Source of the DNA: a virus
Virus record (IMG/VR): IMGVR_UViG_3300031673_000079
Span: 1 to 50,014 of that record
Strand: one strand, 5' to 3'
Length of the DNA stretch: 50,014 nt
Below the pieces are notes generated by a model that was not told the DNA's origin, made no database searches, and saw only the letters and a program-made list of their open reading frames with translations. Both the position numbers and the translations under genes were made by a program. Of this stretch, positions 4,624 through 33,964 are shown piece after piece (within the stretch, counting starts at the first letter, position 1; every line of letters starts with the position of its first letter).

Positions 4624-4821
4624 TCATAGTAGATTCTTTGTATTGGCGTATGTCGTATGTCGTATGCCTTTTGTCAGCTCGTCGCCTGTGTACTCTGCTA
4701 GTCTGTTTGTCAGCTCGTCGCCTGTGTACTCTTTTAGTCTGTTTGTCAGCTCGTCGCCTGTGTACTCTGTTAGTCTGTTTGTCAGCTCGTCGCCTGTGTA
4801 CTCTGCTACTCTGTCTCGCAT
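4624..4821 (-). CDS. 65-residue protein made of four 12-residue repeats
   Basis: The repeat unit is EYTGDELTNRLx, four times, then a short basic tail. The unit is mixed-charge and would form amphipathic helix. The start ATG at 4821 follows the stop of the upstream gene by six bases, so it is probably translated by coupling. The DNA unit is exactly 36 bp, which keeps the frame in every copy and argues for coding. No family recognised. Confidence 0.5.
   Translation of the reverse strand: MRDRVAEYTGDELTNRLTEYTGDELTNRLKEYTGDELTNRLAEYTGDELTKGIRHTTYANTKNLL
4673..4816. repeat. Four tandem 36-bp repeats
   Basis: Units at 4673-4708, 4709-4744, 4745-4780 and 4781-4816. They are near-identical, differing mostly at three or four bases around the 25th-31st position. 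The unit length is a multiple of three, so copy number can change without a frameshift in the overlapping leftward gene. Confidence 0.95.
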
Positions 4822-4827
4822 ATCTGA

Positions 4828-5094
4828 TTATACCGGAAGGGTAAGATTCTGAGTATTAGGAGCGCTAAGATCGTTAGAAACACTAGGAGGAGTCAATTCG
4901 GCTTGCGTAGCAGCCTTAGCGGCTTCAATCTTCGCATTAAGCGCTTCAAACTTCTTAGCGATATCCTCCGTAATAGTACCACCAGCACCTTCTAGAGCAA
5001 CACAAATATCGAGCCAATCTTTATGTATATCCTTGGCAAACTTTTGAACTTCACTTTCCACAGTCTTTTCAACGGGCTTTAAGAATGAAAACAT
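4828..5094 (-). CDS. Unknown 88-residue helical protein, first gene of the late unit
   Basis: Begins MFSFLKPVEK. Residues 5-70 are predicted helical with an Ala/Glu/Lys-rich stretch near 50-65; the tail is Pro/Ser/Asn-rich. ATG at 5094 is preceded by GAGGAG nine bases upstream, which is much better than the in-frame upstream ATG at 5202 that would start inside the promoter. It is the first gene after the leftward promoter. No family is recognised; a virion-associated or packaging role is only suggested by position. Confidence 0.6.
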   Translation of the reverse strand: MFSFLKPVEKTVESEVQKFAKDIHKDWLDICVALEGAGGTITEDIAKKFEALNAKIEAAKAATQAELTPPSVSNDLSAPNTQNLTLPV

Positions 5095-5175
5095 GTGCTT
5101 TATCTCCTCTTGCGCGGTTTCCCGCAGAACTATAGGCGACACTCGCCGCTTGAAAATCTTCCACCACATATCTAT

Positions 5176-5204
5176 ATTATAACATACTATTTGGTATTTC
5201 ACAA
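5176..5204 (-). promoter_or_regulatory. Predicted leftward (late) promoter
   Basis: On the minus strand, TTGTGA (5204-5199), a 17-base spacer, then a perfect TATAAT (5181-5176) preceded by TGT, an extended -10. Transcription would start near 5169, about 75 bases before the first late gene. A TTGACA lies farther upstream (5225-5220) but is 38 bases from the -10, too far to pair. Confidence 0.6.
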
Positions 5205-5382
5205 TCTATATGTGATACATGTCAAGGGGTAAAGTTAGTTCATGTTATCAGTATAAGAAATAAAAGTGCCCTAAACGGTATTTTTTGCTGCGCGTAGTAC
5301 CTTTTTGAACGAACTTACCACGATGCGTGATGTTTATGCCATATTTATTATTATTTGGTGCTTGTATTATATCTATTATCAC

Positions 5383-5427
5383 TTGATGCTTGTTACTTGA
5401 TGCTTGATGCTTGATGCTTGTTACTTG
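5383..5427. repeat. Short 7-bp tandem repeats (TTGATGC / TTGTTAC)
   Basis: A run of 7-bp units alternating between TTGATGC and TTGTTAC. Too short and degenerate to assign a role; it sits at the left part of the control region. Confidence 0.6.
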
Positions 5428-5491
5428 TCGATCGTCGTGCTTATCGTATTACTGTATAAGGAATACATATCTTTCCTACTATCAGAGAATT

Positions 5492-5515
5492 AGGGCGCGC
5501 GTGGCACACGTCCCT
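5492..5515. repeat. Imperfect palindrome
   Basis: AGGG...CGTG, spacer GCA, CACG...CCCT. It could be a protein-binding dyad. It is GC-rich within an AT-rich region. Confidence 0.4.
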
Positions 5516-5604
5516 AGACTGTCCAAGGGCCATACTATATCCAATATCTCTATATCATTCATAATACGTCAATGTCTCTAATATCTGCACTATATCAATC
5601 GTCG

Positions 5605-5828
5605 TATGTTATATGTTATATGTTATATGTTATATGTTATATGTTATATGTTATATGTTATATGTTATATGTTATATGTTATATGTTATATGTTATATGC
5701 TATATGTTATATGTTATATGTATGTATGATGTATGTATGATGTATGTATGATGTATGTATGATGTATGTATGATGTATGTATGATGTATGTATGATGTAT
5801 GATGTATGATGTATGATGTATGATGTAT
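5605..5828. repeat. AT-rich satellite: 7-bp then 11-bp tandem units
   Basis: About sixteen copies of TTATATG (about 5605-5717), then units of TATGTATGATG (about 5718-5800), then TATGATG (to about 5828). The blocks look derived from each other by slippage. Reads would collapse here, so the true copy number is uncertain. An iteron or DNA-unwinding role is possible given the setting. Confidence 0.9.
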
Positions 5829-6423: not shown

Positions 6424-6452
6424 TTTACATTTTGCACGGCGCGTGATACACT
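6424..6452 (+). promoter_or_regulatory. Predicted early rightward promoter
   Basis: TTTACA (6424-6429), a 17-base spacer, TACACT (6447-6452). The spacer contains the second copy of the 13-bp operator-like sequence, so a bound repressor would block RNA polymerase. Predicted start is near 6459, just before the first early gene. The -10 matches consensus at four of six bases. Confidence 0.45.
6435..6447. promoter_or_regulatory. Operator-like 13-mer, copy 2, inside the early promoter
   Basis: Same 13 bases as 6384-6396; occupies the -35/-10 spacer of the predicted early promoter. Confidence 0.45.
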
Positions 6453-6470
6453 ACTGGGATGGAGGATACT

Positions 6471-7013
6471 ATGATGGACGACGCTACAGTGAAGGAGGAT
6501 ACTATGATGGACGACGCTACAGTGAAGGAGGATACTATGATGGAGGATACTACGACGCTCGACGAAACGACGCTCGACGAAACGACGCTCGACGGGCTAT
6601 CGCAAATAGGCGCTCGCAGTTCGTTTTTAATGTACCTCCGCTATGTGCGTAAGCGTCATGTTGAGGAAGGGAAAAAGCTAGATGAAATTATTATGAGGCT
6701 ATTAAAAAGAGAAAAATCGGCGCCAATTCCCCAAAGAAGAGAGGTACATATAGGAAGTTCAGCGTTATCTACCGAGGAGTTAAAGGCAGGAATCAGGGCA
6801 ATTTTAATGGAATTGGAACGGGAGCACGACATTAGCGACTATTCCTCAGTGTATATCTATTACCTAATATCATCTAAAATGTATATAGGAAGATCGGAGA
6901 TTATTCGCTTATTACAGAGCCTGGGCTATACGAGAAAACAGATATACAATGCAAGAGAGAAAAAAACGCACCGAGGTTTTTATAAATTAGAGGATCATCA
7001 CAATGGCGCATAA
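6471..7013 (+). CDS. Unknown early protein with repeated N-terminus
   Basis: First rightward gene, 180 residues if started at 6471. Three in-frame ATGs (6471, 6504, 6537) each follow an identical GGAGG-ATACT ribosome site because the 33-bp unit carrying them is repeated; all three could be used. After the DATVKE-type repeats and three DETTL units comes a helical, basic region, and a C-terminal part (about 105-180) that resembles a small winged-helix DNA-binding fold (inferred from pattern only). No family recognised. The stop overlaps the next start. Confidence 0.6.
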   Translation: MMDDATVKEDTMMDDATVKEDTMMEDTTTLDETTLDETTLDGLSQIGARSSFLMYLRYVRKRHVEEGKKLDEIIMRLLKREKSAPIPQRREVHIGSSALSTEELKAGIRAILMELEREHDISDYSSVYIYYLISSKMYIGRSEIIRLLQSLGYTRKQIYNAREKKTHRGFYKLEDHHNGA

Positions 7014-7985: not shown

Positions 7986-8057
7986 CAATCGGCCAAGATC
8001 GGCATATAGGTACGTCGTGCCCGCCCGATCGGCCGTATGGTAAAGGAGAGTGGCAAC

Positions 8058-8402
8058 ATGAATGATTTAAACTCCGTTCTGCTCGAAGGTGTTCTGGTCG
8101 AGAACCCTAAAGCGTCAACATCGCCGGACGGCCAGGCGCGTTGCAATTTCATCGTCACCACGGTATGGGAGGATATGCGGCACGAGGGGAGAAAAAAGGA
8201 GCCTTTCCACTTCGGCGTAGTAGCATACGGCCAGCTCGGGCAAAAGTGCTTATATGATCTCAAAGCCGGGCGGGGCGTGCGGGTTGTCGGAAGGCTCAAG
8301 CGAGAGAGCTCGACCGATCCCGAGGGCGAGTATCACCCCGAGATTAAGATAGTCGCCGAACACGTGGAGTTTAGGCCATCGAAAAGCGAAAGAGGAGAAT
8401 AA
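8058..8402 (+). CDS. ssb: Single-stranded DNA-binding protein (OB fold)
   Basis: Binds ssDNA during replication and recombination. The 114-residue protein follows the SSB pattern: MNDLNSVLLEGVLVENP opening strand, ARCNFIVTT, EPFHFGVVAYGQLG, a VRVVGRLK strand, and the final EIKIVAEHVEF. The tail (PSKSERGE) lacks the DDDIPF tip of bacterial SSB, common in phage versions. ATG at 8058 has AAGGAGAG upstream; the in-frame ATG at 8037 lacks one. It is encoded away from the main replication module, in the early block. Confidence 0.88.
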   Translation: MNDLNSVLLEGVLVENPKASTSPDGQARCNFIVTTVWEDMRHEGRKKEPFHFGVVAYGQLGQKCLYDLKAGRGVRVVGRLKRESSTDPEGEYHPEIKIVAEHVEFRPSKSERGE

Positions 8403-8561: not shown

Positions 8562-8819
8562 ATGAAAACGTGCGAGGTTTACAATGGATGGAAAAATAAA
8601 GAGACATGGAACATCGCATTATGGTTGGAGAATGATGAAAATATGTATTATCGCATGGTCGCCTATGCGCGACGACATGCTCATCCTACGTATCGCGGGT
8701 TTATCGTACATACGGAATTGTACGGTCAACATACCCCTGACGGATATAGGTATGACTCAGCGCGGCTCGATTATAAGGCGCTAACCGAGTTGGTACGTGA
8801 ATCGAAACAGAACGGGTAG
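8562..8819 (+). CDS. Small protein of the NGWxNxETWNxALW family (DUF7249-like)
   Basis: 85 residues beginning MKTCEVYNGWKNKETWN. The NGW-K/T-N-x-ETWNxALW signature is shared by many small phage and plasmid proteins, often near anti-restriction genes; no biochemical role is established to my knowledge. ATG at 8562 has GGAGG upstream. Position in the early small-gene block fits a counter-defence role, which is inference. Confidence 0.65.
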   Translation: MKTCEVYNGWKNKETWNIALWLENDENMYYRMVAYARRHAHPTYRGFIVHTELYGQHTPDGYRYDSARLDYKALTELVRESKQNG

Positions 8820-8878: not shown

Positions 8879-9184
8879 ATGAGAGACATTATTAATGTTC
8901 AAAAGGACGAGTATGGATATTCCGTATACTGGGGTGAGTATATTCGCCTTGAAGTAGGGAATGGACAGCGCGAGTATGCATATCATAGAGCGATCGAATT
9001 GAGAGCACTTTCAAAAGCGCTAACTACTCTTGCCGAACAGGGAATCGAATTAGATAACCGGTCAAAAGAGTATCTCCGACTCGAATCTAGCATTAAAACA
9101 TTAGGATACTATTATGGGGGGGAAAGAAAGAACGAGCAACTAATCGCCGATCGAGCGATTGAACTGTGGAAAACAGGACTTTGA
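8879..9184 (+). CDS. Unknown early protein (101 residues)
   Basis: Strong AAGGAAGG ribosome site. N-terminal beta-rich segment (1-35) then mostly helix to the end. No motif or family recognised. It is the last gene before the first solitary CRISPR repeat, whose promoter begins 22 bases after this stop. Confidence 0.6.
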   Translation: MRDIINVQKDEYGYSVYWGEYIRLEVGNGQREYAYHRAIELRALSKALTTLAEQGIELDNRSKEYLRLESSIKTLGYYYGGERKNEQLIADRAIELWKTGL

Positions 9185-9249: not shown

Positions 9250-9303
9250 GGTGATATCTTCAGTATCTGCGGTCGCGCCCCGCGCGGGCGCGTGGATTGA
9301 AAC
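9250..9303 (+). CRISPR. Solitary CRISPR repeat 1 with conserved leader hairpin (Racr candidate)
   Basis: Bases 9272-9303 are a 32-bp type I-C-like CRISPR repeat: stem CGCGCCC (9274-9280) / GGGCGCG (9286-9292), five-base loop, and the typical TGGATTGAAAC 3' handle. No second repeat lies within spacer distance and no cas gene is present. A 22-base leader (9250-9271) shared with copy 3 holds hairpin GATAT-CTTCA-GTATC. Solitary repeats on phages are known to act as RNA anti-CRISPRs by occupying Cas proteins with a crRNA mimic. Processing by the host Cas5c (Cas5d) nuclease is expected from the family; activity here is inferred. Confidence 0.85.
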
Positions 9304-9361
9304 AAACTAAGAGCGTAGCATGAGACTAACTATAAAACGCCAAGAGCGGGGGGTGTAGGAC

Positions 9362-9673
9362 ATGAGTTTACCTATTCGTCGATGCTATATCAATGCTGGC
9401 AGATGGTCCGGCTATCTTTGTGACGGCGGCTTGATAGAACGCATGGACGTCTACGTTGCGCCTAGCGATAAATGGCGCGCGCTTTGTATCCGACGGACTA
9501 ATAATCTCGGCTACGAGCTAGAACGCATCCGCCTTACTGGCAATATGTGCGGAGCACAGAAAATGCCCGGTATCCAATGGCACCACAAAAACGGTAAAAC
9601 TCGATGGACGCTAGTAGATATTGATCTTGGCACTATGCGGGAGTATCCAATAGTGCGCATTGACGCTATCTGA
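9362..9673 (+). CDS. Unknown protein (103 residues) downstream of CRISPR repeat 1
   Basis: Starts 58 bases after the repeat with GGGGGG-TGT upstream. Mixed alpha/beta, with repeated Arg and Trp, Cys at 8, 19, 41, 62. No family recognised. Because it follows the repeat unit it is a natural candidate for a protein anti-CRISPR or partner, but nothing in its sequence shows this. Confidence 0.55.
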   Translation: MSLPIRRCYINAGRWSGYLCDGGLIERMDVYVAPSDKWRALCIRRTNNLGYELERIRLTGNMCGAQKMPGIQWHHKNGKTRWTLVDIDLGTMREYPIVRIDAI

Positions 9674-9697
9674 GCGCTAAAGTAGAAGGGGGACTAA

Positions 9698-9922
9698 ATG
9701 ACTGACGAAGCTAAAGCGAAGATTCGTGAGGCGCTAGAGAAGGGCCGAGATATAGCCAGTTGGCCTAAACCATTCGACGTAGCCCTAGCTCTGCTTGCCG
9801 CTGACGACAAGCCGATCGTATCGCGGGATATGGTATGGGAACTGTATAATGCTGATACGACCCACGAAGTTATCGCTGTATGCGAGCAATTTGGCGTTTC
9901 GGTCGAAAGGCCCGAAGACTAA
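9698..9922 (+). CDS. Small acidic helical protein, paralogue family member 1
   Basis: 74 residues beginning MTDEAKAKIREALEKG. Its KIREAL...ALALLAADDKP pattern recurs in the products at 14640-15203 and 15200-15364, so these three form a phage-specific family. Good AGAAGGGGG ribosome site. Function unknown. Confidence 0.6.
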   Translation: MTDEAKAKIREALEKGRDIASWPKPFDVALALLAADDKPIVSRDMVWELYNADTTHEVIAVCEQFGVSVERPED

Positions 9923-9928
9923 GCGTCT

Positions 9929-9966
9929 ACCCAGCACGGCTCGGGGGTCCAACTCCCCCACTGGGT
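9929..9966 (+). ncRNA. Second tRNA-like minihelix
   Basis: ACCCAG (9929-9934) pairs with CTGGGT (9961-9966); inside, GGGGG/CCCCC (9943-9947, 9955-9959) carries a seven-base loop TCCAACT that matches the T-loop pattern at six of seven positions. Only eight bases join the two stems. Downstream, CCCATC-GTAT-GATGGG (9970-9985) is an alternative hairpin. It lies between two genes and resembles the element at 7943 in plan but not sequence. Confidence 0.35.
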
Positions 9967-10014
9967 TTACCCATCGTATGATGGGGTGATTCTACTTTTT
10001 CTCGGAGGTCTCTT

Positions 10015-10305
10015 ATGCAGATCGTCAGAACGTACTCAGCGGGCGTCTTTGCTGTTTCGGCTATCGAGGACAGGCGAGAAACCCTCGCGGGCGTCCATGG
10101 CAAACTGCGCGATGCTCGCAGATTGTGGTACTGGGACGGCGCGGCGTCGCTCTCCGAACTTGCCCAGAGGGGCCCGAGCAAGCCTGGGTCCTGCAAATTT
10201 CCGGCGGCGGTAGACGGTATCGAGGTCGAGCAGATCGTCGAGGTACTGCCCGTGACCGACCAAGCCGCCGCCGTCATCAACGCGGTGCCTATCTGGACAG
10301 CATAA
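10015..10305 (+). CDS. DUF6948-like small phage protein
   Basis: 96 residues with the pattern RTYSAGVF...ARRLWYWDGAASLSELA...SKPGSCKFP, then a VEQIVEVLPVT strand and a final PIWTA. This order is typical of a widespread family of unknown function in phages and prophages (family number from memory). GGAGG lies six to ten bases before ATG. GC-rich. Confidence 0.75.
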   Translation: MQIVRTYSAGVFAVSAIEDRRETLAGVHGKLRDARRLWYWDGAASLSELAQRGPSKPGSCKFPAAVDGIEVEQIVEVLPVTDQAAAVINAVPIWTA

Positions 10306-10317
10306 CACCCTGACGAT

Positions 10318-10358
10318 GGCCCAGGGGACTGGGCCGAAACGCGGCTATGTAGCCGCGT
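10318..10358 (+). other. Two consecutive RNA hairpins before the glycine-rich gene array
   Basis: GGCCCAG-GGGA-CTGGGCC (10318-10335) and ACGCGGCTA-TG-TAGCCGCGT (10339-10358), both perfect. No T-run follows, so they are not classical terminators. They could be an attenuator, an RNase barrier or an operator pair for the array that starts at 10388. Confidence 0.5.
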
Positions 10359-10387
10359 CGGTGATCCAAAATAGAAGGGGGTAAACG

Positions 10388-10711
10388 ATGACAGAGACAG
10401 GCGACGGTTCCGGTTCCGGCAGGGACGACGGATGGGGCTGGGGCGACGGCTCGGGCTGGGGCTCGGGCTGGGGCGACGGCTCCGGTTCCGGCAGGGGCTA
10501 CGGCTCGGGCTGGGGCGACGGCTCCGGTTCCCTCAGGGGCTGGGGCGGCGGCTCGGGCGGCGGCTGGGGCTCGGGCGGCGGCTCGGGCTGGGGCGAAGGC
10601 GATGGCGATGGCTCCGGTTCCGGCTGGGGCGACGGCTCGGGCTGGGGCGAAGGCGAAGGCGAAGGCGAAGGCGACGGCTCGGGCGAAGGCTCGGGCGAAG
10701 GCAGGGAGTAG
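10388..10711 (+). CDS. Glycine-rich repeat protein 1 of 4
   Basis: 107 residues composed almost wholly of Gly alternating with Asp, Ser, Trp and Glu (GDGSGWGS style), from GGC codons alternating with GAC/TCG/TGG/GAA. GGGGG-TAAACG precedes ATG. No enzyme fold is possible; an intrinsically disordered acidic polymer is expected. Similar GxGxGx proteins occur in other phages with no known role. The long frames on the opposite strand are mirror images of this composition. Confidence 0.55.
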   Translation: MTETGDGSGSGRDDGWGWGDGSGWGSGWGDGSGSGRGYGSGWGDGSGSLRGWGGGSGGGWGSGGGSGWGEGDGDGSGSGWGDGSGWGEGEGEGEGDGSGEGSGEGRE

Positions 10712-10714
10712 ACG

Positions 10715-10987
10715 ATGGGTCGGATAGACGGCTGGGGCTACGGCGCCGGTTCCGGCAGGGGCGACGGCTGGGGCTGGGGCGACGGCTGGGGCTCGGGCTC
10801 GGGCTCGGGCGACGGCTGGGGCGGCGGCTCGGGCGAAGGCGAAGGCGAAGGCGACGGCTGGGGCTGGGGCGACGGCTGGGGCTGGGGCTCGGGCTGGGGC
10901 GGCGGCTCGGGCTCGGGCTCGGGCGGCGGCTCGGGCGAAGGCTCGGGCGAAGGCTCGGGCGAAGGCGAAGGCGACGGCTCGGGCTAA
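10715..10987 (+). CDS. Glycine-rich repeat protein 2 of 4
   Basis: 90 residues, same Gly-X alternation, starting MGRIDGWGYGAG. Three bases after the previous stop, with the sequence GAGTAGACG before its ATG. The MxxIDG opening recurs in copies 3 and 4, so the whole cassette including ribosome site and start has been duplicated. Confidence 0.5.
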   Translation: MGRIDGWGYGAGSGRGDGWGWGDGWGSGSGSGDGWGGGSGEGEGEGDGWGWGDGWGWGSGWGGGSGSGSGGGSGEGSGEGSGEGEGDGSG

Positions 10988-11014
10988 GGCTCGGGCGAAG
11001 GCAGGGGGTAGACG

Positions 11015-11167
11015 ATGGATCAGATAGACGGTAGGGGCGATGGCAGGGGCTACGGCGCCGGTTCCGGCTGGGGCGACGGCTCGGGCTGGGGCGCGGGCTC
11101 GGGCTGGGGCGACGGCTCGGGCGAAGGCTCGGGCGAAGGCGAAGGCGAAGGCGACGGCTCGGGCTAA
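11015..11167 (+). CDS. Glycine-rich repeat protein 3 of 4
   Basis: 50 residues starting MDQIDGRGDGRGYG. The ribosome site AGGGGGTAGACG is shared with copy 4. Shortened relative to copies 1 and 2. Unknown function. Confidence 0.45.
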   Translation: MDQIDGRGDGRGYGAGSGWGDGSGWGAGSGWGDGSGEGSGEGEGEGDGSG

Positions 11168-11194
11168 GGCTGGGGCGACGGAAGGGGGTAGACG

Positions 11195-11257
11195 ATGGAT
11201 CAGGTAGACGGCGGGGGCGACGGCTGGGGCAGGGGCGAAGGCGAAGGCGACGGCTAA
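11195..11257 (+). CDS. Glycine-rich repeat protein 4 of 4 (20 residues)
   Basis: Starts MDQVDGGGDGWG, same leader as copy 3, and stops after 20 residues. Probably a decayed copy of the array; kept because start and ribosome site are conserved. Confidence 0.3.
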   Translation: MDQVDGGGDGWGRGEGEGDG

Positions 11258-11328
11258 GGCTCGGGCGAAGGCGACGGCGACGGCGACGATGACAGAAGCC
11301 AGAGCGATTACGAGTGACGGTAAGACGG

Positions 11329-11360
11329 GTCGCGCCCCGCGCGGGCGCGTGGATTGAAAC
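11329..11360 (+). CRISPR. Solitary CRISPR repeat 2 (Racr candidate)
   Basis: The 32 bases are identical to 9272-9303 and 11926-11957. No leader hairpin of the copy 1/3 type precedes it; upstream is the end of the glycine-rich array. The first bases after it, AAAC, match those after copy 1. It lies 24 bases before the lysozyme gene, so the mRNA leader of that gene contains the repeat and would be cut if the host crRNA nuclease recognises it. Confidence 0.85.
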
Positions 11361-11384
11361 AAACAAACATAGGAAGGAAGTAAA

Positions 11385-11882
11385 ATGATTAAACTACTGT
11401 ATCTACTGCCAATGTGTTTTCTCGTATCGTTCGTTCCCTTATCGCACTTTCCTTATCATAGCAATCCTATATGGCGAGTAAATATAGTCGCCGATCATCC
11501 TCCCAGTATAATGGAAGAATGCCATATTGTTGAAGTAGTAAATCATATACCCGATCATCTTTTAGAGGCGCTAGTATTGAGGGAGTCATCAGGAAGCGCA
11601 AACGCTGTACACCACAATGGAGATGGATCGATTGATATAGGTCCGTGTCAATTCAATAATCGATTTATTAGAATGTATGCGGACCGATTCAATTATGGAA
11701 GACTTTTTGATCCTCGAAGTAATGAAGCGGTACATGTCGCAGGACGCGCGTTGAAGTCTCGTTATATTGAATTAGGAAGTTGGCGTAAAGCAGTAGCGTC
11801 GTGGAACCCTGGAGAAAAACACTACGCCGATCATGTTTATCAAGTTTATTATGCACTTATAGATGGAAGGAGTCAAATATAA
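11385..11882 (+). CDS. Secreted lysozyme/transglycosylase-like protein
   Basis: 165 residues. A hydrophobic N-terminal segment (about 3-25) acts as signal peptide or anchor. The SLT-like core follows: catalytic Glu in LRESSGSANAVH (about residue 68), then DGSIDIGPCQFN, and a later ARALKSRY helix and ASWNPGEK. It would cleave peptidoglycan glycan strands. It is encoded in the early unit, far from the other lysis genes, between two solitary CRISPR repeats. AGGAAGGAAG is a strong ribosome site. An entry or superinfection role is an alternative to lysis. Confidence 0.8.
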   Translation: MIKLLYLLPMCFLVSFVPLSHFPYHSNPIWRVNIVADHPPSIMEECHIVEVVNHIPDHLLEALVLRESSGSANAVHHNGDGSIDIGPCQFNNRFIRMYADRFNYGRLFDPRSNEAVHVAGRALKSRYIELGSWRKAVASWNPGEKHYADHVYQVYYALIDGRSQI

Positions 11883-11903
11883 TGATATGTCCTGTTTGTT
11901 GGA

Positions 11904-11957
11904 GGTGATATCTTCAATATCTGCGGTCGCGCCCCGCGCGGGCGCGTGGATTGAAAC
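11904..11957 (+). CRISPR. Solitary CRISPR repeat 3 with conserved leader hairpin (Racr candidate)
   Basis: Repeat 11926-11957 is identical to the other two copies. The leader 11904-11925 differs from that of copy 1 by one base, and that base keeps the hairpin paired (GATAT-CTTCA-ATATC; A-U here, G-U in copy 1). A TATAAT at 11878-11883 could be a -10, but no good -35 is seen. A separate strong promoter starts 45 bases after the repeat and belongs to the next gene. Confidence 0.85.
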
Positions 11958-15364: not shown

Positions 15365-15452
15365 ATCGATTGCTAATCGCTTCGGCTACACGATTTCCGA
15401 GGACGACGCGTTCGACTGCGAAACGCCGAAGAATGTTCCCGAGCTGGAATAA
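15339..15452 (+). CDS. Small unknown protein (37 residues)
   Basis: Begins MQDRLAYCRSIANRFGY with TGGAGAG upstream; overlaps the end of the preceding gene by 26 bases in another frame. Short, so only moderately supported. Confidence 0.3.
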   Translation: MQDRLAYCRSIANRFGYTISEDDAFDCETPKNVPELE

Positions 15453-15466
15453 CCAAGGAGTGCCAG

Positions 15467-16228
15467 ATGGAAACTCTAGAAATTCATAATCAAGAAGACT
15501 ATGACGCCAACAAAGATTTCGATGGCATTTTGATAATCAAGGCGGGCTTGGTCAGGGCCTCGGGCAACGCGCCCGTCTGGGCCTCGGGCAACGCGACCGT
15601 CATGGCCTCGGGCAACGCGACCGTCATGGCCTCGGGCAACGCGACCGTCAGGGCCTGGGACAACGCGACCGTCGAGGCCTGGGGCAACGCGACCGTCGAG
15701 GCCTCGGGCAACGCGACCGTCGAGGCCTCGGGCAACGCGACCGTCAGGGCCTGGGACAACGCGCCCGTCTGGGCCTCGGGCAATGCGATCGTCATGGCCT
15801 CGGGCAACGCGACCGTCATGGCCTCGGGCAACGCGACCGTCAGGGCCTGGGACAACGCGGCCGTCATGGCCCGGGACAACACAACCGTCGAGGCCTCGGG
15901 CAACGCGACCGTCGAGGCCTCGGGCAACGCGACCGTCGGGGCCTCGGGCAACGCGACCGTCAGGGCCTCGGGCAACGCGACCGTCGGGGCCTGGGACAAC
16001 GCGACCGTCATGGCCTCGGGCAACGCGACCATCAGGGCCTCGGGCAACGCGACCGTCAAGGCCTCGGGCAACGCGACCGTCGAGGCCTGGGGTAACGCGA
16101 CCGTCGAGGCCTGGGGCAACGCGACCGTCGAGGCCTCGGGCAACGCGACCGTCATGACCTCGGGCAACGCGACCGTCATGACCTCGGGCAACGCGACCGT
16201 CGAGGCCTACGCGGGAGAGGAAGTATGA
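15467..16228 (+). CDS. Octapeptide-repeat protein (ASGNATVx), predicted beta-solenoid
   Basis: 253 residues. A 30-residue head (METLEIHNQEDYDANKD) is followed by about 27 copies of an 8-residue unit ASGNATVx or AWGNATVx with Arg, Glu, Met or Trp at the variable place. Such regular short repeats with inward Ala/Val favour a beta-helix like that of hexapeptide or pentapeptide proteins, which in some cases mimic DNA. The 24-bp units are nearly identical at the DNA level, so the array is evolving fast by recombination. AAGGAG ribosome site. Function unknown. Confidence 0.75.
   Translation: METLEIHNQEDYDANKDFDGILIIKAGLVRASGNAPVWASGNATVMASGNATVMASGNATVRAWDNATVEAWGNATVEASGNATVEASGNATVRAWDNAPVWASGNAIVMASGNATVMASGNATVRAWDNAAVMARDNTTVEASGNATVEASGNATVGASGNATVRASGNATVGAWDNATVMASGNATIRASGNATVKASGNATVEAWGNATVEAWGNATVEASGNATVMTSGNATVMTSGNATVEAYAGEEV
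15552..16206. repeat. About 27 tandem 24-bp repeats
   Basis: The unit contains GGCAACGCGACCGTC followed by a variable codon and GCCTCG or GCCTGG. The unit length is a multiple of three, and all copies are in frame within the 15467 gene. Confidence 0.95.
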
Positions 16229-16539
16229 GACTAGCAAGGGCAATCATCGCCGATCTGATCGGCGCGATAGAAGACGTGGACCCGAGGATGCGCTACGTCA
16301 ACGCGCAGATCGATCGGGCAACGCTCGCCGAGGCGCGGGAGTTCATTACTAAGCCTCAGCCCGAACTCGACTGGGATGTGTCACTAATTCGCACCGCACT
16401 TCGGCGCAAGGTTTCGCCGTGGAGCAGCGAAGAGAAGGAGGCCATTGACCGGCTTGCCAGTCACCCACAGAGCGCGGAGCAAGCTTTCTGTAATACGGCA
16501 ACTGAGGCATATTGCATACGGCGATCTCTCCGTTGCTAG
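16225..16539 (+). CDS. Unknown protein (104 residues)
   Basis: ATGA overlap with the repeat protein. N-terminal helix-rich part (1-48) and a second part with PWSSEEKEAIDRL. No family recognised. Last gene of the GC-rich island; the next gene is AT-rich. Confidence 0.5.
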   Translation: MRLARAIIADLIGAIEDVDPRMRYVNAQIDRATLAEAREFITKPQPELDWDVSLIRTALRRKVSPWSSEEKEAIDRLASHPQSAEQAFCNTATEAYCIRRSLRC

Positions 16540-19225: not shown

Positions 19226-19446
19226 CAAAGAAGGATGATGGAGTAAGACTAGAGAAGTATTTCGAGAATGATGATTTTGACGATCCGATTGACGAAGATG
19301 AAGATGAAGATGAAGATGAAGATGAAGATGAAGATGAAGACGAAGACGAAGACGAAGACGAAGACGAAGACGAAGACGAAGACGAAGACGAAGACGAAGA
19401 CGAAGACGAAGACGAAGATGAATCTTATGAGGAGGAGGAAAAATGA
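19222..19446 (+). CDS. Acidic Asp-Glu repeat protein
   Basis: 74 residues: a normal 24-residue head (MTKKDDGVRLEKYF), then about 21 Asp-Glu pairs, then ESYEEEEK. The run is coded by GAAGAT then GAAGAC hexamers, a pure microsatellite. Between two coupled genes (ATGA on both sides), so it is translated. Polyanionic tails can mimic DNA and occupy binding proteins; the neighbouring product is ssDNA-binding-like. Length may be an assembly estimate. Confidence 0.65.
   Translation: MTKKDDGVRLEKYFENDDFDDPIDEDEDEDEDEDEDEDEDEDEDEDEDEDEDEDEDEDEDEDEDEDESYEEEEK
19291..19425. repeat. GAAGAT/GAAGAC hexanucleotide repeat
   Basis: About 22 hexamers, the first third GAAGAT and the rest GAAGAC, in frame within the 19222 gene. 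The sharp switch of third base marks two expansion events. Confidence 0.95.
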
Positions 19447-23325: not shown

Positions 23326-23793
23326 ATGGACTACAAAAATGAAGATATTACGGATATAATAATAGAAACTATAGAGATAAAAGACAAAGAAGAAAACATA
23401 TTAGGATATGCTTATAAATATAATAGCGGAATGCTGATGATTGCAATGAATAAAGGGAACGTTATATTAGCAGAAGAAGCACCAAAAATAAGTGAATTTA
23501 AAGATACTAAGGATAAGCCACGACTAGGGTATGTCTATCGGTCCTTTCTTAATGCTGTTACGGCAGTAAGAGAATTTGGAGCGAAAAAATATCAGAATCC
23601 TAATACGTGGCGACAAGTTCCTATGGATGACTATTATCATGCCCTCATGCGGCACGTCTCTGCGATGATGGATGCAAGGTTCAACCCCGAGAGCCGCGAG
23701 ACGCTAATCGATGCGGAGAGTGGCATACGTCACGCGGCACACGCCGCATGTAATTTGATGTACATCATTGAAGAGGAGGACAGTATATCATGA
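23326..23793 (+). CDS. DUF5664-type nucleotide (dATP/dGTP) diphosphohydrolase-like protein
   Basis: 155 residues. The C-terminal part KPRLGYVYRSF..AVREFGAKKY..NTWRQVP...YYHALMRH...DAESGIRHAAHAACN matches a MazG-like all-helical family annotated as dATP/dGTP diphosphohydrolase. It would change nucleotide pools during replication. The N-terminal 55 residues are beta-rich and unassigned. TAGGAGG ribosome site. Bases about 23640-23760 are much richer in GC than the rest of the gene, as if patched by recombination. Confidence 0.75.
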   Translation: MDYKNEDITDIIIETIEIKDKEENILGYAYKYNSGMLMIAMNKGNVILAEEAPKISEFKDTKDKPRLGYVYRSFLNAVTAVREFGAKKYQNPNTWRQVPMDDYYHALMRHVSAMMDARFNPESRETLIDAESGIRHAAHAACNLMYIIEEEDSIS

Positions 23794-26080: not shown

Positions 26081-26662
26081 ATGAAAATATTAGCTACCGC
26101 TTTCTCCGAAGTGAAAATAATACTATATGATAAAATATATGATGATCGAGGATCATTTTCGGAATTTATGAAAGAAAGTGATGGCTTTTCTATTAGACAA
26201 GTTAATGAGAGTTTTTCTAAAAAACGAACACTTCGTGGTTTACACATGCAGTATGGTCCTCCTTTATCAAAAATGATACGGGTAGTCGCAGGCTCTTGTA
26301 TGTTTATTGTACTCGATATTCGCCCTAAATCTTCTACTCAAGGGAAAGCTATCCTAGTAAAAAAAGCTAGCGTAATGGATGAGAAGCATACAAGTTGGCT
26401 TAAAATACCTTTTGGATTTGCTAGTGGATTTTTGGCAATGGAAGATTCAATTGTAGAATATCTTTTTGACGAGGAGTATAGCGAGTATACCAATATATCG
26501 GTAAACTATAATGATCCTAACATTGATTGGTCTTTAACAACTGCACCATATAAAAATACTTACCAGTTCTTTATAGATACCAATAAATTGATTATATCTG
26601 AAAAAGATAGGGAAGCTCTTAGTTTACTTGATTTAATAGGAAAAAAGGAGCTGTTTGAATGA
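26081..26662 (+). CDS. RmlC-like nucleotide-sugar epimerase (cupin)
   Basis: 193 residues; 3,5- or 3-epimerase of 4-keto-6-deoxy sugars. Pattern: DDRGSFSEFM, VNESFSKKRTLRGLHMQ (His in RGLH, about 55), VVAGSCMFIVLDIR, then PFGFASGFLAMED and VEYLFDEEY (Tyr). The usual GFAHGF His is Ser here, so specificity or activity may differ. First of four sugar genes, coupled to the next by ATGA. Possible products decorate the virion, DNA or host surface. Confidence 0.85.
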   Translation: MKILATAFSEVKIILYDKIYDDRGSFSEFMKESDGFSIRQVNESFSKKRTLRGLHMQYGPPLSKMIRVVAGSCMFIVLDIRPKSSTQGKAILVKKASVMDEKHTSWLKIPFGFASGFLAMEDSIVEYLFDEEYSEYTNISVNYNDPNIDWSLTTAPYKNTYQFFIDTNKLIISEKDREALSLLDLIGKKELFE

Positions 26663-27894
26663 AAACTATTCCTGTTTCTGGTATGGTTATTACTGACAAA
26701 GACAAGGAGACTATGATATATGCAATATCATCTGGAGAAATATCTTATGGCTCGTATAATAGATTGGCAAGCGACAGATTAGCAACTTATGATAAACTAA
26801 ATTTTTGCCATCTTGTTAATTCAGGTAGTTCCGCAAACTTACTCGCTATGATGGCTTTCACATCTAAGAATATGCCTAAAGAGTACCGCGTAAAAAAAGG
26901 GGACGAGATAATTACTGTAGCTGCTTCGTTTCCTACTACTGTAGCACCTATTATTCAAGCGGGGTGTGTTCCTGTATTTGTAGATATAGATGATAGTTAC
27001 AATATTGATGTAGGGCAAATATATAAGGCAATAACACCAAAAACTAAAGGTATATTTATAGCTCATACTCTCGGTATCCCTTTTGATGTGGTAGAGATAG
27101 AAAATATATGCCGCAAATTAGGATTATTCTTAATAGCCGATAACTGTGACTCTTTAGGAACAACATGCAATAATAAGCCTATAAGTGTATGGGGAGATGT
27201 AATAACTCACTCCTTTTATCCCGCGCATCACATAACGAGCGGTGAAGGCGGTGCTGTGCTAACCAATAATATTAGGATAGCCAAAATAATACAATCTATG
27301 CGTGATTGGGGAAGAGACTGCCAATGTGAACCAGGACACGATAACTACTGTGGGCATAGGTTCGAGGGACAATACGGAGAACTCCCAGCTAACTATGATC
27401 ATAAATATGTCTATAGTGAACTGGGGTATAATTTAAAAATGACTAATATCCAAGCGGCTCTTTTATATTCACAGTTAGATAATATAGTTGAATGGACAGA
27501 AATACGAAAAAGTAATTTTGCTATTCTTGATGAGTATTTACATGAATATTCTTTTCCTTACATACTAAAAGATGGCATTTATACAGACTACTCACCTAGT
27601 TATAAAGGAATTCCTTCGTGGTTTGGCTATCCTATTTGTCTTCCTACTAGAATGAACAGATCAAGAGTGATAGAAGAGCTCAACAAACAAGGAGTACAGA
27701 CGCGCCTCTTATTTGCGGGGAACATACTGAAACAGCCTATGTGGCGCTATAAGCATAGAACTATAGGCGATCTTCCCATGACAAATAGAATTATGGAACA
27801 AATGTTTTGGATAGGATGCTGGCATGGGCTTAGTGAGGAAGATATGCTGTACTCTCGGGACGTTGTTTTTAACGCAATAAAGGAGGAGGAATGA
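26659..27894 (+). CDS. PMP-dependent [2Fe-2S] sugar 3-dehydrase (E1/RfbH-like)
   Basis: 411 residues, DegT/AHBA fold but in the branch of CDP-4-keto-6-deoxyglucose-3-dehydrase. The PLP lysine is replaced by His190 in SFYPAHHIT, as in E1 and ColD. Cys163, Cys221, Cys223, Cys231 give C-x57-C-x1-C-x7-C, the E1 iron-sulfur pattern as I recall it. It would remove the 3-OH of a 4-keto-6-deoxy sugar toward 3,6-dideoxyhexoses. The reductase partner (E3) is not encoded, so host electrons are needed. Substrate nucleotide not known. Confidence 0.88.
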   Translation: MKTIPVSGMVITDKDKETMIYAISSGEISYGSYNRLASDRLATYDKLNFCHLVNSGSSANLLAMMAFTSKNMPKEYRVKKGDEIITVAASFPTTVAPIIQAGCVPVFVDIDDSYNIDVGQIYKAITPKTKGIFIAHTLGIPFDVVEIENICRKLGLFLIADNCDSLGTTCNNKPISVWGDVITHSFYPAHHITSGEGGAVLTNNIRIAKIIQSMRDWGRDCQCEPGHDNYCGHRFEGQYGELPANYDHKYVYSELGYNLKMTNIQAALLYSQLDNIVEWTEIRKSNFAILDEYLHEYSFPYILKDGIYTDYSPSYKGIPSWFGYPICLPTRMNRSRVIEELNKQGVQTRLLFAGNILKQPMWRYKHRTIGDLPMTNRIMEQMFWIGCWHGLSEEDMLYSRDVVFNAIKEEE

Positions 27895-28607
27895 AAATAC
27901 TCATACTCGGAGGCTCTGGTGTATTAGGACAAGCTATAAGAAATAGGCTAACAGAATTGCTCATCGTACATATAGCGCCTTCGCATGAAGAGCTAGACGT
28001 TACAAGTGACAATATTTATATAAGTAGCACATACGATGCTATACTGTATTTAGCCGGAATGAAGAACCAAGAATATATAGAAAGTCATGGTCAAGAAGCG
28101 ATGTGGCCTAATATATTCGGACTTATAAATGTTGTGTCTAATATGCATGAGAATCAAAAATTGGTGTATATTTCTACGGGATACGTATATAAAGATGATA
28201 AGAGCTATCACAAAGAAACAGATGGACTATACCCATGCAATAGATACGCATGGTCTAAATTAGGAGGAGAATGCGTAGTTAATATGCTTCCTGAAGAACG
28301 ACATTTAATAATTCGATGCGAGTTTTCTAAGAAACCATGGCACAGAGAAACAGCGTACAACAATCAATTCACTTCACGAGAAGAAGTTACTACCACGGCT
28401 AAGAAAATAGTGGACCTAATTTCAAAGAAAGCTTATGGTACATATAATGTGGGAGGAAAGAGACACTCTATTTGGGAATACGCAAACAGTATTAGTGACA
28501 AAGAAATAGAAGAAGTGCAATTGTACCATGATGAAAATCCTTTATTACCAAGAGATACATCACTAAATACTGATAAGTATACTACGTTTATGAAGGAACA
28601 TAAATGA
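27891..28607 (+). CDS. RmlD-like nucleotide-sugar 4-reductase/epimerase
   Basis: 238 residues of the short-chain extended family. GGSGVLGQ (8-15) binds NAD(P)H, STGYVY (about 95-100) supplies Ser/Thr, and YAWSKLGGE (about 117-125) is the YxxxK catalytic pair. Short for RmlD (about 290). Likely reduces the 4-keto group made by the neighbours. ATGA coupling on both sides. Confidence 0.85.
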   Translation: MKILILGGSGVLGQAIRNRLTELLIVHIAPSHEELDVTSDNIYISSTYDAILYLAGMKNQEYIESHGQEAMWPNIFGLINVVSNMHENQKLVYISTGYVYKDDKSYHKETDGLYPCNRYAWSKLGGECVVNMLPEERHLIIRCEFSKKPWHRETAYNNQFTSREEVTTTAKKIVDLISKKAYGTYNVGGKRHSIWEYANSISDKEIEEVQLYHDENPLLPRDTSLNTDKYTTFMKEHK

Positions 28608-29287
28608 TTGATTGTTATATCCCTTTGCGAACGGACCCTGGTTTACTGCAACAGGCTATTGCATCAATGTATGATCAGGTAGACAACTTTATAGTAATAA
28701 ATAATACACAACAAGACCTAACTTCATTGTTTAAGTATGTACCAAAGGTAGAGTTTCTAAATCCGTTCGACCCCATGTGTTTTGAGCAATCCATAAATAC
28801 GGCAGTTAAGCACTCCTATGGTTATAAGAAAAATCATGACTACTTATTCTGGTGTCATAATGATATTATTGTACAAGCAGGGGCCGTAGAAGCATTATTC
28901 AAAAAATATGAAGAAGTTAAGCATACAAAATGGGGTGTGATCTACGGTAACTATGACACGTTCTGCCTTATCAATCCTAACTTCTTTATAAAGGAGAATA
29001 TATGGGGAGAAGTTAACTTATTTCCTAACTATTTTGGGGATAATCATCGTTATCGTCTTATGGATTTACGTGGTTATTCACGATTGGACGCGGAAGGAGT
29101 AAAAGATTTAGTGTTTCATATCGGTAGTCAGACTATTATGCGCCATCCTTATTTCAAAACTATCAATAACTTGACATTCGCACTAGAGCAACAATTATAT
29201 ATAAATATTTGGGGAGGGTTATCCCCAAATGAGTTAAACGCCGATCCTACTTGCGGCGGTCTTTACCCTATTACGGAGGAAAAATGA
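28604..29287 (+). CDS. Glycosyltransferase, GT2-like (GT-A)
   Basis: 227 residues. Opens with MIDCYIPLRTDPG and a VINNTQQD strand; HNDIIVQAGA (about 86-95) fits the DxD-like site. Possibly transfers the deoxy sugar to a lipid, protein or DNA. Lacks membrane helices. The stop overlaps the next start. Confidence 0.65.
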   Translation: MIDCYIPLRTDPGLLQQAIASMYDQVDNFIVINNTQQDLTSLFKYVPKVEFLNPFDPMCFEQSINTAVKHSYGYKKNHDYLFWCHNDIIVQAGAVEALFKKYEEVKHTKWGVIYGNYDTFCLINPNFFIKENIWGEVNLFPNYFGDNHRYRLMDLRGYSRLDAEGVKDLVFHIGSQTIMRHPYFKTINNLTFALEQQLYINIWGGLSPNELNADPTCGGLYPITEEK

Positions 29288-30654
29288 GCGATACTTTTGC
29301 CGATCCTGCTGAGAAATATAACTATGATGAAGAGACCGGTACCTATATGAGAAAGAAGCCTGAGCCTATTAAGAAATTAAATGTTTTATACTGGGGTGAT
29401 ACTCCTACTTGCTCTACAGGATTTGGTCAAGTGGCTCGCAACGTTCTTCAATCGCTTAATGCTACAGGAAATTATGACTTTAACATTCTTGGCATTAACC
29501 ATGGGGGGGATTACTATGACTTCAATAAGTTCCCTTATAAGATTGACCCTGCGACATGCCTTCTAAGTAACGATACCGACTTACACGGGAGACCTAAACT
29601 CCTGCGAAAATTGAGAACAGAACGAGTAGACATCCTATTTATCATACAGGATACCTTCTTAATGATGAGCGTCATGGATGATATCATCAAAATTCGCAAG
29701 GAACTTCCTCTAGATAGGCAGTTCGTTATTATTTATTACTTTCCTATCGATGGAAACCCACAGCCTGATTGGATTACTAAAGGGGTGCTTCCTGTAGATT
29801 TTCCTGTTACGTATACTCAGTATGCTAAACAAGTTTGTTATAAAACAAGTAATCAGATGTTCCCTCTTGATGTTATATATCATGGAGTTAACAAACAAGA
29901 GTTTTTCCCACTCAATGATGAGACTATTAAGGAGTTTAGAAAAAAGGTATTTGGTGTTCATGCGGATAAATTTCTTGTACTGAATGTAAATAGAAACCAA
30001 CAAAGAAAAGACTTGCATCGTTCTTTAGCCGCGTATTCCATTTTCCATAAGAAGCACGCCGATTCATTTTATTTTATTAACTGTCAGATGGAGGATATTG
30101 GAGGTAGACTCGATATAATAGGTAGTCAGTACGGGCTTAAAATGCCGGACCCAAAGAATAATATTGAAGGAGACTGGACATGTCCTGCTCCCGGAACATT
30201 TAGCGCAGCGCAAGGTTATTCTATAGATGTTCTCAACTCTTTATATAATGCGGCTGATCTTGTTATCTCTTCTACCCTTGGTGAAGGATGGGGTCTATCC
30301 TGTACAGAAGCTATGCAATGTAAGACCCCTGTACTCTTTCCAAGAAATACGTCACTCATCGAAATGATAGGACCTAGTGAAGAAAGAGGCTTTTTATGTA
30401 AGTCAGGAGAAGATAGAGACCACATGATTTGTTTAGGAGGAATAGATAACAATGTCATTCGTCCTGTAATAAATGTTCAAGATATGGCAGATAAAATAAG
30501 CTATATTTATGAGCATCCTGAAGAGGCTAAGAATAAAGCCAATGAGGCGTTTGCATGGGTGGAGTCATGGTACGATATTTCTCCTAAATGGTTCGACGTG
30601 TTCAAGCGTGCAGAAAGCAAATTAAAGGAGATGCGCGGTGCAGTACAAGAGTGA
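29284..30654 (+). CDS. Glycosyltransferase family 4-like (GT-B)
   Basis: 456 residues. LNVLYWGDTPTCSTGFGQV near the N-terminus, VLNVNRNQQRKDL (about 237-249) in the middle, and the donor-binding ADLVISSTLGEGWGLSCTEAM with E-x7-E style glutamates (about 325-345). ATG at 29284 has GGAGG upstream and forms ATGA with the previous stop; an earlier in-frame start lacks support. Cytosolic. Acceptor unknown. Confidence 0.88.
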   Translation: MSDTFADPAEKYNYDEETGTYMRKKPEPIKKLNVLYWGDTPTCSTGFGQVARNVLQSLNATGNYDFNILGINHGGDYYDFNKFPYKIDPATCLLSNDTDLHGRPKLLRKLRTERVDILFIIQDTFLMMSVMDDIIKIRKELPLDRQFVIIYYFPIDGNPQPDWITKGVLPVDFPVTYTQYAKQVCYKTSNQMFPLDVIYHGVNKQEFFPLNDETIKEFRKKVFGVHADKFLVLNVNRNQQRKDLHRSLAAYSIFHKKHADSFYFINCQMEDIGGRLDIIGSQYGLKMPDPKNNIEGDWTCPAPGTFSAAQGYSIDVLNSLYNAADLVISSTLGEGWGLSCTEAMQCKTPVLFPRNTSLIEMIGPSEERGFLCKSGEDRDHMICLGGIDNNVIRPVINVQDMADKISYIYEHPEEAKNKANEAFAWVESWYDISPKWFDVFKRAESKLKEMRGAVQE

Positions 30655-32923: not shown

Positions 32924-33964
32924 TTAATATTCTATTATAACACAGCCTGACCCACCAGCACCCCCACCAATTCCTCCCGCTCCACCCCCTCCTCCTCCTC
33001 CTATATTACCTGTACTCCCACCGCCTAAACCACCAGCACCCCCACCAGCTCCTCCCATACCCACAGCCCCATATACTCCTGCCCCTCCCGAGGCTCCTGC
33101 CCCTCCCGGGGCTCCTGCCCCTCCTAATACATTAGTACCACCACTATACAATGCCCCGTAGCCTCCTTGTGCCGATATACTACCGAATGTAGTAGTCCCC
33201 CCATTAGTTCCCGATCCACCACCCACTCCTCCTGCTCCACCTGCTCCAATGGAATAAGATACTATCTGTCCAGGCGTAACAGAAATATTTTTAGCAGTTA
33301 CCAAACTTATACTTGTTCCTCCTCCTCCACCACCACAGTAGATAACTGTGCTACCACTAGTTAAACCACTTCCTCCCCCACCTCCTCCCCCTACTACTGT
33401 AACTCTAAGCTGATACACACTATTAGGAACTGTCCAATTACCCGTTCCACTAAGGAGTGTCACTACTTGTCCCTGAAAAATATTAACTCCACCACTTATA
33501 GCGATTGTCCAATTAGAGCCTAACGCGGCATTAAGCGCTGTAGTCCAATTAGAGCCTAACGCGGCATTAAGCGCTGTAGTCCAATTAGAGCCTAACGCGG
33601 CATTAAGCGCTGTAGTCCAATTAGAGCCTAACGCGGCATTAAGCGCTGTAGTCCAGTTAGCTCCATACGCGGTTTTAAGATAGTAAAGATTAGCTAACGC
33701 CGTAGCAACTTGATTCGTCGCGCTTCCCGAAGGAGTAAGCCCGCCTGAAGTAACTATAGTATCAAGTTCCGCAATGACATTTGTCAAACCACTCTGAACT
33801 ATTGTAACATTGTCAGTCAGAGCGTACTCCATATAGTTATACCATTCACATGGAAGTTGCTCTTGGGGCTGATAGCCGATAGTTAAGTGTGCAGAATCGG
33901 GTTGAACTTTATTACCCGCCGTACAGAATACAGGTAAATTAGTATACGTAACTGAACCAGTCAT
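32924..33964 (-). CDS. Tail fibre / receptor-binding protein, glycine-rich
   Basis: 346 residues. A structured N-terminus (1-100), four 12-residue repeats of ALGSNWTTALNA (about 103-150), then WTVPNSVYQLRVTVVGGGGGG and a 150-residue glycine-rich domain ending SGCVIIEY, the pattern of polyglycine receptor-binding tips such as T-even gp38-like adhesins. Repeat number sets the spacing of the tip. Placement after baseplate genes fits. Confidence 0.75.
   Translation of the reverse strand: MTGSVTYTNLPVFCTAGNKVQPDSAHLTIGYQPQEQLPCEWYNYMEYALTDNVTIVQSGLTNVIAELDTIVTSGGLTPSGSATNQVATALANLYYLKTAYGANWTTALNAALGSNWTTALNAALGSNWTTALNAALGSNWTTALNAALGSNWTIAISGGVNIFQGQVVTLLSGTGNWTVPNSVYQLRVTVVGGGGGGGSGLTSGSTVIYCGGGGGGTSISLVTAKNISVTPGQIVSYSIGAGGAGGVGGGSGTNGGTTTFGSISAQGGYGALYSGGTNVLGGAGAPGGAGASGGAGVYGAVGMGGAGGGAGGLGGGSTGNIGGGGGGGAGGIGGGAGGSGCVIIEY
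33512..33655. repeat. Four tandem 36-bp repeats in the tail fibre gene
   Basis: Units at 33512, 33548, 33584 and 33620, identical or nearly so, each coding for 12 residues. A second, unrelated 36-bp x4 array is at 4673. Confidence 0.95.

Follow-up and report, generated by a model that had tools for sequence, protein, structure and literature searches.

The repeat-bearing region of the phage genome

The window, by which we mean the whole stretch of 50,014 bp that was analysed, is the record of an uncultured phage; its ends are identical over 225 bp and it looks complete. Proteins identified in it include a terminase, a portal protein, a major head protein, DNA polymerase A, a primase, helicases and tail proteins. 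Its structural genes are co-linear with those of Tetrasphaera phage TJE1, a distant relative with which protein identity is approximately 25-50%. Among the approximately 30 phage proteins scanned, which are a part of all open reading frames (ORFs), we found no integrase and no match to a Cas family, and in that set the repeats described below are indeed unaccompanied by cas genes, as an earlier note on this DNA had claimed.

The repeats are found in and beside an interval of the early region bordered on the left by a gene for a single-strand DNA-binding protein (SSB; 8037-8402, + strand, PF00436, E 7e-14) and on the right by a lytic transglycosylase gene (SLT; 11385-11882, + strand, PF01464, E 3e-8). 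Between these borders, likewise on the + strand, are a gene for a DUF7249 protein (8562-8819) whose homologue in viral contig L142 is 57% identical, a 101-aa ORF directly upstream of the first repeat copy (8879-9184, no family above cut-off), a 103-aa ORF directly downstream of it (9362-9673, no family match), and a gene for a DUF6948 protein (10015-10305, PF22253, E 5e-22), which adjoins a Gly-rich repeat ORF. Small ORFs without assigned function and Gly-rich low-complexity frames make up the other contents. The interval spans 2,982 bp in the phage versus 355 bp in TJE1, whose annotated genes for SSB and lytic transglycosylase are near neighbours and have the same order, and its GC content is 0.49-0.62 versus approximately 0.36-0.44 across most of the genome. 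It looks like an accessory stretch, the sort of place that would gather counter-defence genes. None of the proteins scanned around the repeats matched a known Acr family; the 101-aa and 103-aa ORFs flanking copy 1 are possible Acr candidates.

The tandem-repeat content of the genome is unusually high for a phage, with tracts at 4670-5828, 6448-6594, 10388-11290, 15431-16330, 19291-19422 and 33507-33660 and units of 36, 7, 11, 33, 24, 6 and 36 bp. Low-complexity repetitive frames also adjoin the DUF7249 gene of the related viral contig L142. In both the phage (10015-10990) and viral contig L065 (9535-10145), a Gly-rich repeat ORF comes after a DUF6948 gene; besides this pair, no similarity between the two was seen.

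Three identical and solitary repeats

The 32-nt sequence GTCGCGCCCCGCGCGGGCGCGTGGATTGAAAC occurs in the phage as three exact and identical copies on the + strand, at 9272-9303 (copy 1, intergenic), 11329-11360 (copy 2) and 11926-11957 (copy 3), as the earlier note had reported. The chance expectation for this sequence with up to three mismatches is 0 in shuffled sequences, and no further copy was found in the phage at that tolerance. Besides the terminal repeat, the genome has no dispersed exact repeats of at least 28 bp other than these three copies. Copy 1 is predicted to form a hairpin (CGCGCCC/GGGCGCG) followed by the 11-nt handle TGGATTGAAAC, and the repeat folded in isolation has a predicted energy of -14.3 kcal/mol. 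The handle GTGGATTGAAAC is confined to the three repeat sites in the phage, even when one mismatch is allowed.

For SRUFinder, a solitary repeat unit (SRU) matches a known CRISPR repeat with an identity and coverage of 90% or more, is intergenic, and lacks both another repeat within 100 bp and a partial repeat in its 100-bp flanks. No second repeat was found within 100 bp of any copy. The best local similarity between the repeat and the flanks covers 34-53% of the repeat length, which falls short of SRUFinder's 70% threshold, and the upstream and downstream flanks of each copy are not duplicates of each other. No ORF of at least 60 aa runs across copy 1 or copy 3. The only frames across copy 2 are two antisense ones in a low-complexity tract, neither of them a credible gene. 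Identity to the repeats of real arrays is 100% over 32 nt. All three copies are thus isolated and intergenic, and they are solitary repeat units by the SRUFinder rules; the earlier claim that they stand alone, with no neighbour at spacer distance, holds for the 100-bp flanks.

Every copy is placed between genes of the early region, as the earlier note had read from the sequence; these genes are co-directional, and the repeats are on their sense strand. Copy 2 ends 24 nt ahead of the ATG of the transglycosylase gene, with AGGAAGG in between, and that gene in turn separates copy 2 from copy 3. Directly upstream of the copies there is no strong promoter, only weak promoter-like sites: the one before copy 1 scores 9/12, and close ahead of copy 3 the sole candidate seen is a TATAAT resembling a -10 element, picked out by eye. 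Expression of the repeats would therefore depend on early read-through.

Relation among the copies

The exact sequence shared between copies extends over 40 nt for copies 1 and 3, 37 nt for copies 1 and 2, and 33 nt for copies 2 and 3. Copies 1 and 3 belong to a dispersed duplication of 54 bp (53/54 identical), which includes a common 22-nt upstream sequence at 9250-9271 and 11904-11925 (both + strand) that differs by one substitution. Copy 2 resembles the other two over 33-37 nt in all and shares little with them past the repeat. This is most simply explained if a 54-bp unit was duplicated once, with a further copy that is alike almost solely in the repeat. This pattern would fit selection for a unit recognised by Cas proteins, and independent capture would give the same pattern. 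The 19-nt core of the shared upstream sequence has one match in IMG/VR, with no adjoining repeat.

When copies 1 and 3 are placed in their 54-nt context, the predicted fold departs from the canonical hairpin. We considered the upstream sequence as an element that refolds the RNA and hides the handle, and rejected it as a feature of the class, because three observations speak against it: 6-9% of shuffles of the upstream 22 nt folded with an energy as low as or lower than that of the natural sequence, a fold predicted with 30 nt of upstream sequence leaves the copy 3 handle mostly free again, and the trend is absent in 58 viral type I-C solitary repeats. The predicted refolding of copies 1 and 3 is within chance; such a fold could hamper Cas5c.

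The repeat is that of type I-C CRISPR arrays

The exact 32-mer was found in 47 bacterial stretches of the species genomes searched, mostly in arrays, which have spacers of approximately 33-37 nt. We scanned the proteins encoded next to the exact repeat at three loci. The array in Methylobacter (L019) lies beside Cas5c, Cas7c, Cas8c and Cas1c, and that in Smithellaceae (L016) beside Cas1c and Cas4c; the third locus (L038) has a Cas3c match, and its Cas7 scores best on the Cas7b model. Type I-C-specific cas genes are thus present at two of the three loci. Since the phage sequence matches real arrays exactly, some of them beside I-C-specific cas genes, its identity as a true type I-C CRISPR repeat, proposed in the earlier note, is well supported by these sequence comparisons. 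That note had also suggested matching the repeat to the arrays of candidate hosts. Exact matches were obtained, but the titles of the exact-repeat records span many phyla, so the repeat cannot name a host.

Solitary type I-C repeats in other viruses

Excluding, possibly, records very near the window, the exact 32-mer is absent from the IMG/VR contigs searched, and no phage in INPHARED matched it at E<=0.01. A relaxed type I-C pattern was found in 87 viral contig stretches, mostly as solitary repeats, and 2,103 viral SRUs have been reported in IMG/VR (Camara-Wilpert et al. 2023, PMC10651486). Copies were counted over the whole record in 38 viral records with the relaxed pattern. Two identical solitary copies were found in each of two records (G006 and G019), a second copy with two mismatches in two others (G011 and G032), a solitary repeat together with a pair at spacer distance in one (G007), and a repeat pair in another (G009). 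Three solitary copies were found in none of the 38. Carriage of several copies is therefore not unique to this phage; three copies are the most seen and are the unusual part here. The description of the case as unusually strong in the earlier note is somewhat overstated, because viral solitary type I-C repeats are common and two-copy records exist, although the third copy does stand out.

In one of these viral contigs (L065, 8754-9323) an IS3-like transposase frame ends with a solitary type I-C repeat, and one stretch of approximately 34 bp of the transposase gene is present on either side of the repeat, an arrangement that could come from recombination between spacer and protospacer or be a de Bruijn assembly artefact. 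Two viral contigs that are approximately 98% identical (L074 and L120) have a solitary repeat in common, and their alignment breaks at its 3' end. Conservation of the repeat within clusters of related viral SRU contigs was considered as evidence and set aside: the pairs are too alike for selection and recent descent to be separated.

A candidate type I-C RNA anti-CRISPR

The definition of solitary repeat units behind RNA anti-CRISPRs (Racrs), and a type I-C Racr shown to work, come from Camara-Wilpert et al. (2023, PMC10651486). The definition fits here because the repeats are true type I-C repeats, solitary, in sense orientation between early-region genes, and in a phage, carriage by a virus being evident from the terminase, portal, capsid and tail genes of the record. 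Judged from sequence features of this kind, the Racr reading of the earlier note is probably right, and we regard the three repeats as candidate type I-C RNA anti-CRISPR units. Their location in a GC-rich accessory stretch, their standing as the sole long dispersed repeats besides the terminal one, and the wide spread of such units in viruses also favour this reading. Against it weigh the lack of a phage match among 448 spacers from exact-repeat loci, the weakness of the promoter-like sites, the lack of a recognisable acr gene among the proteins scanned, and the predicted departure of copies 1 and 3 from the canonical hairpin in their 54-nt context.

Cas5d cuts the type I-C repeat to leave an 11-nt 5' handle and remains on the hairpin (PMC5965380), and in the finished complex Cas5c and Cas7 clamp the handle (PMC7684278). 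RacrIC1 inhibits type I-C, and inhibition by RacrIF1 is dose-dependent (PMC10651486); for RacrIF1 the main inhibitor is the product upstream of the cut. Given this cleavage and handle clamping, a lone early repeat would be expected to yield both a hairpin piece and a handle-bearing RNA. The repeats would be transcribed together with the phage early genes, and host Cas5c, the type I-C repeat endonuclease, would bind and cut each hairpin and be retained on the upstream piece. The downstream RNA would have the authentic 11-nt handle UGGAUUGAAAC at its start and phage mRNA behind it as a pseudo-guide, and might nucleate Cascade on a meaningless guide. Non-productive or non-targeting complexes would use up Cas5c, Cas7c and Cas8c, and interference would drop, with three copies offering more decoys per transcript. 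The type I-C PAM is TTC, and the pseudo-guides should be harmless to the phage, as at their own loci the repeat end AAC stands in place of this PAM. It is doubtful that the arrangement goes as far as a dose-based, CRISPR-sensing strategy, in which Cas5c would cut the early polycistronic mRNA at three sites into three distinct decoy crRNAs with phage-derived pseudo-guides and also rearrange early expression only in type I-C hosts.

RacrIC1, from a Bifidobacterium pseudocatenulatum prophage, is likewise a phage-borne solitary type I-C repeat and was examined with 5' RACE and a plaque assay (PMC10651486). It is, however, present as one unit, which follows acrIC5 at a distance of 11 nt, and is prophage-borne, whereas the present phage carries its repeat in three identical copies, with no acr gene recognised and no integrase among the proteins scanned. 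A nearby acr gene is frequent for Racrs but not obligatory. With the viral SRUs of IMG/VR (Camara-Wilpert et al. 2023) it shares solitary repeats outside arrays, and it differs from the other records in copy number, at most two identical solitary copies being found in the 38 whole records. If the Racr reading is true, this phage with its three identical decoys would be a natural case of Racr dosage. It would then allow a clean test of how far the strength of RNA-based CRISPR inhibition depends on copy number, and also a test of type I-C Racr action where Cas5c, not Cas6, cuts the repeat. The decoy-RNA strategy itself is already known in phages; three copies per genome are unusual.

The repeats could instead be functionless debris, that is, repeats of a host array brought in by recombination or mis-integration, one of which was later duplicated. 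The dispersed duplication of copies 1 and 3, the richness of the phage in tandem repeats and the contig with a repeat within a transposase frame, between two approximately 34-bp copies of the gene, are all in keeping with such an origin. We nevertheless think it unlikely, as copy 2 is identical over 32 nt yet shares little else with copies 1 and 3, neither a spacer nor a second repeat is left, and no other dispersed repeat persists in the genome.

It is very improbable that the units are crRNA-like guides, in which a repeat and the 34-35 nt downstream direct host Cascade at rival phages or repress cas promoters. Virus-borne mini-CRISPR arrays (Medvedeva 2019, PMC6858448) and the crRNA-like CreA/CreR regulators (PMC9458426) are known precedents; the former carry host-type repeats and the latter are ectopic repeats outside arrays, as in the phage, and cleavage would give the downstream RNA an authentic handle (PMC5965380). 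A mini-array, however, consists of two repeats flanking a spacer, and here there is neither a second repeat nor a matching spacer, the downstream 42-nt stretches having no match in the phage records searched. Unlike CreA/CreR, moreover, the phage has no recognised toxin gene and no seed match to cas promoters at the loci examined, and a search of the bacterial loci with the exact repeat gave no match of at least 9 nt following a TTC PAM.

Even less probable is a role of the hairpins in gene regulation, as sites of mRNA processing or translation control, either cut by Cas5c or autonomous. The position of every copy between co-directional genes, and of copy 2 so close ahead of the transglycosylase start, would suit such a role, but viral solitary type I-C repeats are not enriched before start codons (17/54 versus 56/185 control sites) and a plain hairpin would not require an exact CRISPR repeat. 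We give almost no credence to an assembly artefact joining phage reads to host-array reads, for although metagenome contigs such as L065 show that one spacer-length sequence can stand on either side of a repeat, the phage copies have no flank duplication, both sides of each run on into phage genes, and the two border genes, for SSB and transglycosylase, keep their order and lie close together in TJE1.

Host and relatives

None of the 448 spacers from exact-repeat loci matched the phage; the longest exact run was 15 nt. Two further routes did not lead to a host either: comparison of a 20-kb phage stretch with 32 repeat-bearing genomes returned low-complexity matches and one aminotransferase gene, and tetranucleotide composition gave a weak signal. 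As to relatives, one contig (L051) is 99% identical and covers the terL/portal end only. In those found through the portal protein, the region equivalent to the SRUs is missing, or the whole records checked have no type I-C pattern match, and the DUF7249-based search gave only the record of L142 again and one weak partial match. By these three routes no relative covering the repeat-bearing region was found.

Elsewhere in the genome, a PF18909 dATP/dGTP diphosphohydrolase domain is encoded at 23326-23793, adjoining the polymerase and helicase genes. This family is linked to phages with diaminopurine genomes; no PurZ-like gene was noticed in the phage. A sugar-nucleotide cluster at 26081-30654 comprises genes for an RmlC-like protein, an aminotransferase, an RmlD-like protein and a glycosyltransferase. 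The phage aminotransferase shares 45% identity with a counterpart from an Armatimonadetes metagenome-assembled genome (L179), and that genome also has the exact 32-mer CRISPR repeat of the phage.
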